The position numbers and the translations under genes are program-made. This document shows, piece by piece, positions 36,819 to 37,258 of a stretch of DNA of 55,151 nucleotides. Source of the DNA: Verrucomicrobiota bacterium (lineage in GTDB: Bacteria; Verrucomicrobiota; Kiritimatiellia; Kiritimatiellales; Pontiellaceae); the NCBI GenBank assembly GCA_024279685.1, contig JAJRRI010000008.1, positions 1 through 55,151 on the forward strand, in the 5' to 3' direction. Numbering within the stretch: the stretch's first letter is position 1; every line of letters begins with the position of its first letter. Below the pieces are notes generated by a model. That model did no database searches. It was not told the DNA's origin and saw only the letters and a program-made list of their open reading frames with translations.

Positions 36819-36906
36819 TGGCGGAGAGAGAGGGATTCGAACCCCCGGAAGCTTGCGCCTCTCCGGTTTTCAAGACCGGTACCTTAAACCACTCAGACAT
36901 CTCTCC
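36819..36906 (-). tRNA. tRNA-Ser(UGA), intact
   Basis: Reading the minus strand gives a complete 88-base class II tRNA with encoded CCA. The acceptor arm GGAGAGA pairs with TCTCTCC. The D-arm region has TCTGAGTGG. The anticodon stem CCGGT/ACCGG bounds a CTTGAAA loop (anticodon TGA). A long variable arm (AGAGGCGCAAGCTT) is present and the T-arm has GGTTCGAATCC. Its first base is also the last base of the stop codon of the GIY-YIG gene. Its 5' 36 nt are duplicated at 37223-37258. Confidence 0.95.
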
Positions 36907-37142
36907 TACAATTGTTCCTTGAGCCATCGGCGACCCCAACCTGACTTTAAATACCGCTCTCTCTTTTCTGCGGTATTCCTGTCCGGATGCTCCTCCAGAA
37001 AAACTCTCCTCCATGGCTTATACGCCTTGGTGGATTTAACCCGTCCCATATTATGCGATATCAATCGCTTGTCCGGCTGGGCACTACTTCCAATGTAAAG
37101 ACGCTCATGTTCAAGGTTTTTAAGTACATATACATAATACAT
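36906..37142 (-). CDS. GIY-YIG nuclease-domain protein abutting tRNA-Ser
   Basis: A 78-residue single-domain protein: [20 protein letters not shown] is the GIY...YIG element, followed by the conserved Arg in [10 protein letters not shown], and a conserved Glu in [20 protein letters not shown]. These small GIY-YIG proteins (YhbQ/UPF0213 type) resemble homing or repair nucleases. The stop codon TAG shares its G with the first base of tRNA-Ser. A structured spacer and an exact 5'-half copy of the same tRNA lie upstream, so the gene sits where an insertion into the tRNA gene would place it. AAGGTTGAG precedes the ATG. Confidence 0.86.
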
Positions 37143-37163
37143 TTACTCAACCTTCCCGTTTTT

Positions 37164-37222
37164 CGCGTGACCAGCCTTTGGCTGGAACGCGACCACGTTT
37201 TCCGCTTTGCGGATGCACGTGG
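37164..37222. other. Two adjacent hairpins between the tRNA fragment and the GIY-YIG gene
   Basis: Hairpin one spans 37164-37191: CCAGCC/GGCTGG with outer CGCGT/ACGCG. Hairpin two spans 37193-37222: CCACGT/ACGTGG enclosing CCGC-TTT-GCGG. They fill the spacer directly beside the break in the tRNA copy and precede the nuclease start, consistent with a structured RNA or a terminal element of an insertion. Confidence 0.6.
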
Positions 37223-37258
37223 CAAGACCGGTACCTTAAACCACTCAGACATCTCTCC
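37223..37258 (-). repeat. Truncated tRNA-Ser copy (5' 36 nt, broken in the anticodon)
   Basis: The 36 bases, read on the minus strand, are identical to the first 36 bases of tRNA-Ser at 36871-36906. The copy stops after the second anticodon base (CTTG of CTTGAAA), and sequence from there on is unrelated. It precedes the intact gene in transcription order with the nuclease gene between them. Confidence 0.9.

Follow-up and report, generated by a model that had tools for sequence, protein, structure and literature searches.

What is a nuclease gene doing between half of a tRNA gene and the whole of the same gene? In the window (the entire 55,151-nucleotide stretch analysed here, from a genome of the genus Pontiella, Kiritimatiellota), a small GIY-YIG gene lies directly in front of an intact tRNA-Ser(UGA) and behind an exact copy of that tRNA's 5' half. 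The features of the locus, following the minus strand, are these:

37270..37308, minus strand: weak promoter-like stretch 5' of the fragment, at the position of the conserved tRNA-Ser promoter of relatives; degenerate in the window
37258-37223, minus strand: 5' fragment, by sequence comparison an exact copy of tRNA-Ser(UGA) positions 1-36
37193..37222, minus strand: hairpin 1 of the insert S, outer stem CCACGT..ACGTGG
37163..37192, minus strand: hairpin 2 of the insert S, outer stem TCGCGT..ACGCGA
37155..37162, minus strand: AAAACGGG, a repeat of tRNA positions 37-44 with one mismatch
37142-36906, minus strand: gene for a 78-aa GIY-YIG nuclease (PF01541, 2.3e-16)
36906-36819, minus strand: intact tRNA-Ser(UGA), CCA encoded, anticodon TGA at tRNA positions 35-37
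36765..36799, minus strand: intrinsic terminator of the tRNA gene, a GGGCGCTAATT hairpin of a form common to some empty relatives

The order is thus tRNA 1-36, the double hairpin S, the repeat of tRNA 37-44, the GIY-YIG gene and the intact tRNA-Ser. The 36-nt copy stops after the second anticodon base, and at the other end of the locus base 1 of the tRNA is the G of the nuclease's TAG stop codon. A first-pass annotation had described the exact half copy, the two hairpins, the 78-residue gene and the overlap of stop codon and tRNA, and all of these were found where it had placed them. Because AAAACGGG resumes the tRNA after the hairpins, S sits inside an anticodon arm and not just behind a half copy; P. 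sulfatireligans F21, the named relative, has the exact AAAACCGG (tRNA 37-44) at the same place. By its sequence, then, the fragment is the anticodon arm of the tRNA with the 60-nt S inserted between positions 36 and 37, truncated soon after. Over the copied part the intact tRNA is letter-identical to the fragment, and these 36 exact bases exclude a chance origin of the layout. An assembly artefact is ruled out by recurrence of the arrangement in P. sulfatireligans F21 (L022/L105).

The 78-aa ORF is the sole ORF between fragment and tRNA. Its product consists of the catalytic domain only, with no DNA-binding part, keeps the catalytic-site residues (Y5, Y16, G18, R26, H30, E62), and has UPF0213, SLX1 and I-TevI as its nearest solved structures. 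Compared with P. sulfatireligans, dN/dS for the nuclease is 0.09 (dN 0.136, dS 1.48) and the DNA differences fall mostly at third codon positions (11/8/36), a pattern from which we conclude that the gene is under purifying selection as a protein. Recent horizontal transfer between the two genomes is unsupported, the nuclease DNA being 77% identical against 78% for rpoB; judged by substitution, the saturation of its synonymous sites (dS about 1.5) shows long residence instead. The nuclease gave no PADLOC match, and a defence gene was rejected on that ground. A phage or plasmid origin was also rejected, no relative of the window protein having been found among phage records (by tblastn), plasmids or viral contigs. 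The first-pass annotation had seen neither an intron fold nor an integrase, and this was borne out. An Rfam scan of the locus returned nothing above gathering score except tRNA, and a group I intron was rejected on the combination of a 60-nt double hairpin, a complete tRNA and no match to an Rfam intron family. A tyrosine-integrase element was rejected for want of an integrase gene between fragment and tRNA.

The two hairpins of S total 60 nt (37222-37163) and have fold scores of z = -3.2 as RNA and z = -6.0 as DNA, with no shuffled sequence as stable. The S sequences of the window and P. sulfatireligans are 89-94% identical, a closer match than that of the nuclease coding sequence, which suggests that S is probably functional. 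Both sides of its inner stems are altered from one lineage to another; these stems were aligned by hand since automatic alignment misplaced the hairpins, and as their 100% pairing holds by construction only the double changes count. S was found once per genome, at the tRNA only, and a dispersed palindrome of the REP/RAYT type was rejected for this reason. Extra short hairpin insertions occur in tRNA pieces at other loci, in the D arm (L073, L108, L112) or the T loop (L107, L120, L121).

We then compared the tRNA-Ser locus across 28 Pontiella genomes. It is filled in the window genome and in P. sulfatireligans and decayed in a third (G005), and tRNA-Ser(UGA) is undisturbed in the other genomes where it was found whole. 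On an rpoB tree, several forks of which are weakly supported, the three carriers fall at scattered places. A promoter block that is conserved, TTGc..TATACATTCCGCGTTCTTCC, stands directly 5' of the tRNA in most of the undisturbed relatives; in P. sulfatireligans the same block precedes the fragment. A terminator hairpin of one form follows directly 3' of the tRNA in the window, in P. sulfatireligans and in some undisturbed relatives. With the promoter 5' of the fragment and the terminator 3' of the tRNA, the extra DNA therefore consists of the nuclease unit plus one 5' half. The flanks of the window and P. sulfatireligans elements were not alignable, and no within-species presence/absence of the element was seen. 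Full-length tRNA-Ser(UGA) was found once per genome at high identity (in the window assembly, the intact gene was the only full UGA copy found), so an insertion lacking the rescue should be lethal.

These comparisons bear on several earlier proposals. Entry of an element at the anticodon loop, bringing with it a 5' half with which the target is rebuilt, is supported by the empty and filled relatives, and by the independent recurrence at many tRNAs described below. The arrangement is not absent from close relatives with no sign of mobility, as the annotation had allowed that it might be; nor, in this lineage, is the GIY-YIG gene a fixed neighbour of tRNA-Ser regardless of duplication, since most Pontiella lack it and have an undisturbed tRNA-Ser(UGA). 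The proposed placement of the tRNA promoter upstream of the fragment holds in P. sulfatireligans, with its conserved block, and is less clear in the window, where the corresponding stretch is weak and degenerate.

The window genome also has the mirror form of this arrangement, in which tRNA-Leu(UAA) is followed by a small GIY-YIG gene, a hairpin region and a 3' half, the latter a 96%-identical copy of tRNA bases 36-86. Here the native promoter region directly adjoins the tRNA upstream (overlapping contig C104), and thus only the 3' half has been duplicated. Another way to view these loci is through the alleles that they bring together. At Leu(UAA) in genome G026 the acceptor stem of the 5' fragment reads GCCCAGG, as is common in the genus, and the intact tRNA has the self-consistent pair GCTCGGG/CCCGAGC; genome G007 shows the reverse pattern, and at L111 there are wide differences between fragment and intact tRNA-Cys. 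These differences suggest that two alleles met at these loci, which is not what plain duplication would give. The replacement piece may thus be of foreign origin there; in the window, fragment and intact tRNA are identical.

To place the locus among its relatives, we collected every small GIY-YIG gene, apart from those of UvrC type, in 58 relatives, together with relatives of the window nuclease from 388 genomes of the phylum and named contigs, for a total of 137 sites. A tRNA lay within 300 bp on the same strand at 74 of the 137 and on the opposite strand at none, and 0 of 27 rpoB loci used as a control had a tRNA within that distance. Labels for 25 isoacceptors clustered on the nuclease tree, requiring 51 changes against 69.3 when shuffled (0 of 200 shuffles were as low), with strongly supported Ser-UGA, Leu-UAA, Leu-GAG and Thr/Arg clades, and genomes of different families have the same nuclease lineage at the same isotype. 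Partial tRNA copies were present at 37 loci, where all 5' pieces (32/32) lay upstream of the intact gene and all 3' pieces (21/21) downstream. The 5' pieces end mostly at Sprinzl-like position 34/35 in the anticodon loop (15/32) or at 26, the base of the anticodon stem (7/32); pieces of the Thr and Arg lineages stop at the stem base, and a short hairpin replaces the arm. Some sister lineages carry a whole tRNA between two copies of S, and about half of the tRNA-linked sites in the wider family are without a detectable tRNA fragment. The same logic, with hairpin-interrupted pieces of tRNA-Ala, Cys and Gln, was found in Bacteroidota (L108, L109) and Patescibacteria (L111, L112), the evidence from these two phyla being these four named loci.

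At several loci the units are repeated around one intact tRNA. L119 has three 5' units of 112 bp, the tRNA, a nuclease and a 3' half; L120 has two 5' halves, the tRNA, and then twice over a nuclease and a 3' half; L133 has two 5' pieces, the tRNA and three nuclease units; and L135 has two units of 5' piece and nuclease before the tRNA. Where the copies in an array differ, the outermost is the most decayed (83% vs 100% in L119, 86% vs 100% in L061), as would be expected from repeated insertion into the central, rebuilt tRNA.

We consider the best explanation, with a probability of roughly 0.68, to be that a free-standing GIY-YIG homing nuclease forms the core of the locus, a small selfish element that is site-specific and carries a piece that rescues the tRNA. 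In the simplest sequence of events, which we infer, the nuclease would cut an empty tRNA-Ser(UGA) gene in the anticodon region, and the double-strand break would be repaired by gene conversion from a copy bearing the element, the cut ends (1-36 and 37-88) both finding homology in the donor. The native 5' half would be left behind as the fragment, closed by S, which would destroy the cutting site and so shield the fragment in the donor. The 5' half supplied by the element would be fused to the native 3' half, giving an intact essential tRNA and a surviving cell. The native promoter may then read fragment, S, nuclease and tRNA as a single transcript, from which RNase P could release the tRNA. 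Sister lineages have the mirror arrangement, with the nuclease and a 3' half behind the tRNA, or a whole tRNA enclosed by two copies of S. Several findings sit awkwardly with homing. The rebuilt tRNA in the window is letter-identical to the fragment, so that the presumed target is intact and the avoidance of self-cutting is unexplained; the protein lacks a DNA-binding part; the saturated synonymous sites of the gene point to long residence; about half of the tRNA-linked sites have no fragment; and presence/absence within a species was not seen. The arrays imply that a rebuilt tRNA can indeed be targeted again.

The character of the nuclease suggests a different emphasis. With no more than a catalytic domain, one closest to UPF0213 and SLX1, the protein might recognise structure rather than sequence, in which case the locus would be a structure-guided mobile element whose SLX1-like nuclease recognises folded DNA (a cruciform S, hairpins of the tRNA gene), with S as a mobile recognition border inserted in the loops of tRNA-encoding DNA. 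The position of S in anticodon loops, the further hairpins in D arms and T loops, the paired changes in the hand-aligned inner stems, and the close conservation of S beside a nuclease saturated at synonymous sites are all consistent with this. However, S shows no dispersal, being single-copy and confined to the tRNA, and nuclease lineages that track tRNA isotype suggest sequence specificity; we therefore regard this explanation as unlikely.

Two further explanations dispense with movement between genomes or with selfishness. Cutting of a neighbouring tRNA followed by recombination could duplicate the pieces locally, as SegB does in phage T6 (PMC13096335), and would account for tandem arrays and exact 5' copies. 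Yet duplication would not produce an insert such as S at the break, the fragment belongs to another allele than the intact tRNA at Leu(UAA) and L111, and a single nuclease lineage occupies a single isotype across genomes of different families, which makes purely local duplication very improbable. We give least credence to a domesticated function, in which the GIY-YIG protein, or an RNA of the fragment and S, serves tRNA processing or guards against anticodon nucleases and is retained because it benefits the host. Such a role would fit the purifying selection seen on the protein, the conserved S, the co-orientation with tRNAs in every case and the tmRNA neighbours of some loci. Against it speak the patchiness of the element within the genus, the existence of decayed copies (L073) and of nested arrays, and the absence of a PADLOC match.

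If the locus is indeed a selfish element with a rescue piece, its closest architectural counterparts are the mobile-ORF elements of fungal mitochondria, known from atp6 of Allomyces macrogynus and from atp6, atp9, cox2 and nad3 of Glomus, in which an endonuclease ORF (GIY-YIG in Glomus atp9) and a replacement gene end lie in an essential gene (PMC3630166). In both cases a replacement piece is carried and the native end is left as a remnant; the mitochondrial elements, however, replace the 3' end of protein genes, whereas here a bacterial chromosomal tRNA is rebuilt by either half or as a whole, with a hairpin at the break and serial arrays. The closest case for enzyme and context is SegB of T4/T6, a free-standing GIY-YIG homing endonuclease beside phage tRNA genes that drives tandem amplification (PMC13096335). 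Tandem duplication of tRNA and nuclease is common to both, but SegB is phage-borne, no hairpin-bordered rebuilt half tRNA is reported for it, and the window protein has no phage relative by tblastn. Neither system includes tRNA genes of bacteria that are rebuilt, by half or as a whole, with borders formed by hairpins.

Bacterial group I introns (PMC3984707) share the insertion loop when they lie in tRNA anticodon loops, and some carry GIY-YIG homing nucleases; the present element differs in having nothing to splice, an insert of about 60 nt and a complete tRNA. The RHE, mobile double-hairpin elements of mitochondrial DNA, are paired GC-rich hairpins inserted in genes (PMC2800124). S likewise has paired hairpins but is single-copy and tied to the nuclease and to tRNA breaks. 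By the time these comparisons are drawn, one familiar class is left: elements that target tRNA genes through a tyrosine integrase also rebuild the tRNA on insertion and leave a tRNA piece. The present element has no integrase, spans a few hundred bp and rebuilds the 5' half.

Taking the survey as a whole, we incline, a little beyond even odds, to the broader view that these loci represent a widespread, undescribed class of mobile element that inhabits bacterial tRNA genes (in Kiritimatiellota/Verrucomicrobiota, Bacteroidota and Patescibacteria) and in which a minimal GIY-YIG nuclease with a hairpin-closed target copy breaks an essential tRNA gene and supplies a repaired one, as a natural home-and-rescue drive with lineages tied to isotypes. 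No published description of the arrangement was found in a literature search whose coverage excluded most subscription journals and all bioRxiv preprints. If this view is correct, home-and-rescue gene drives have a natural counterpart in bacteria, one with built-in controls in the form of empty alleles, nested arrays and matched tRNA isotypes. Orphan tRNA halves would then be accounted for, as would the many small GIY-YIG (UPF0213-like) genes that neighbour tRNA genes. The loci would offer a direct test of how site-specific nucleases persist in essential genes without introns or inteins, and they raise the question of which role a structured hairpin plays at the site of insertion. To our knowledge the element, if autonomous, would be among the smallest autonomous elements known.

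Several minor observations concern the same genes. A palindrome, CCTTCCCTTTTTCTCTAGGAAA...AAAAAGGC, lies directly 3' of tRNA-Ser(UGA) in L082, L084 and L092 (genomes G005, G016 and G007), followed in L084 by an ORF resembling the start of a tyrosine integrase, and L088 has the palindrome alone; L082, L084 and L092 are probably ordinary integrative elements using the 3' end of tRNA-Ser(UGA). In G021, 3'-end pieces of tRNA-Ser(UGA) and tRNA-Leu (C1:338089-338118 and C2:2588568-2588628) lie 8.4 and 6.7 kb past the intact genes, as left by ordinary islands. L160 (1387-2446) holds two GIY-YIG genes in a tRNA-Pro array; behind each of them comes a copy of tRNA-Pro that is nearly full-length and 92% identical. 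Some GIY-YIG loci without a tRNA flank tmRNA, and L006, L007 and L008 have small GIY-YIG genes from other lineages immediately 3' of the tmRNA gene. One GIY-YIG clade (L033, L059, L049, L050, L129, L159) was never found beside a tRNA or other Rfam RNA, and in one genome has two identical copies 7 kb apart.
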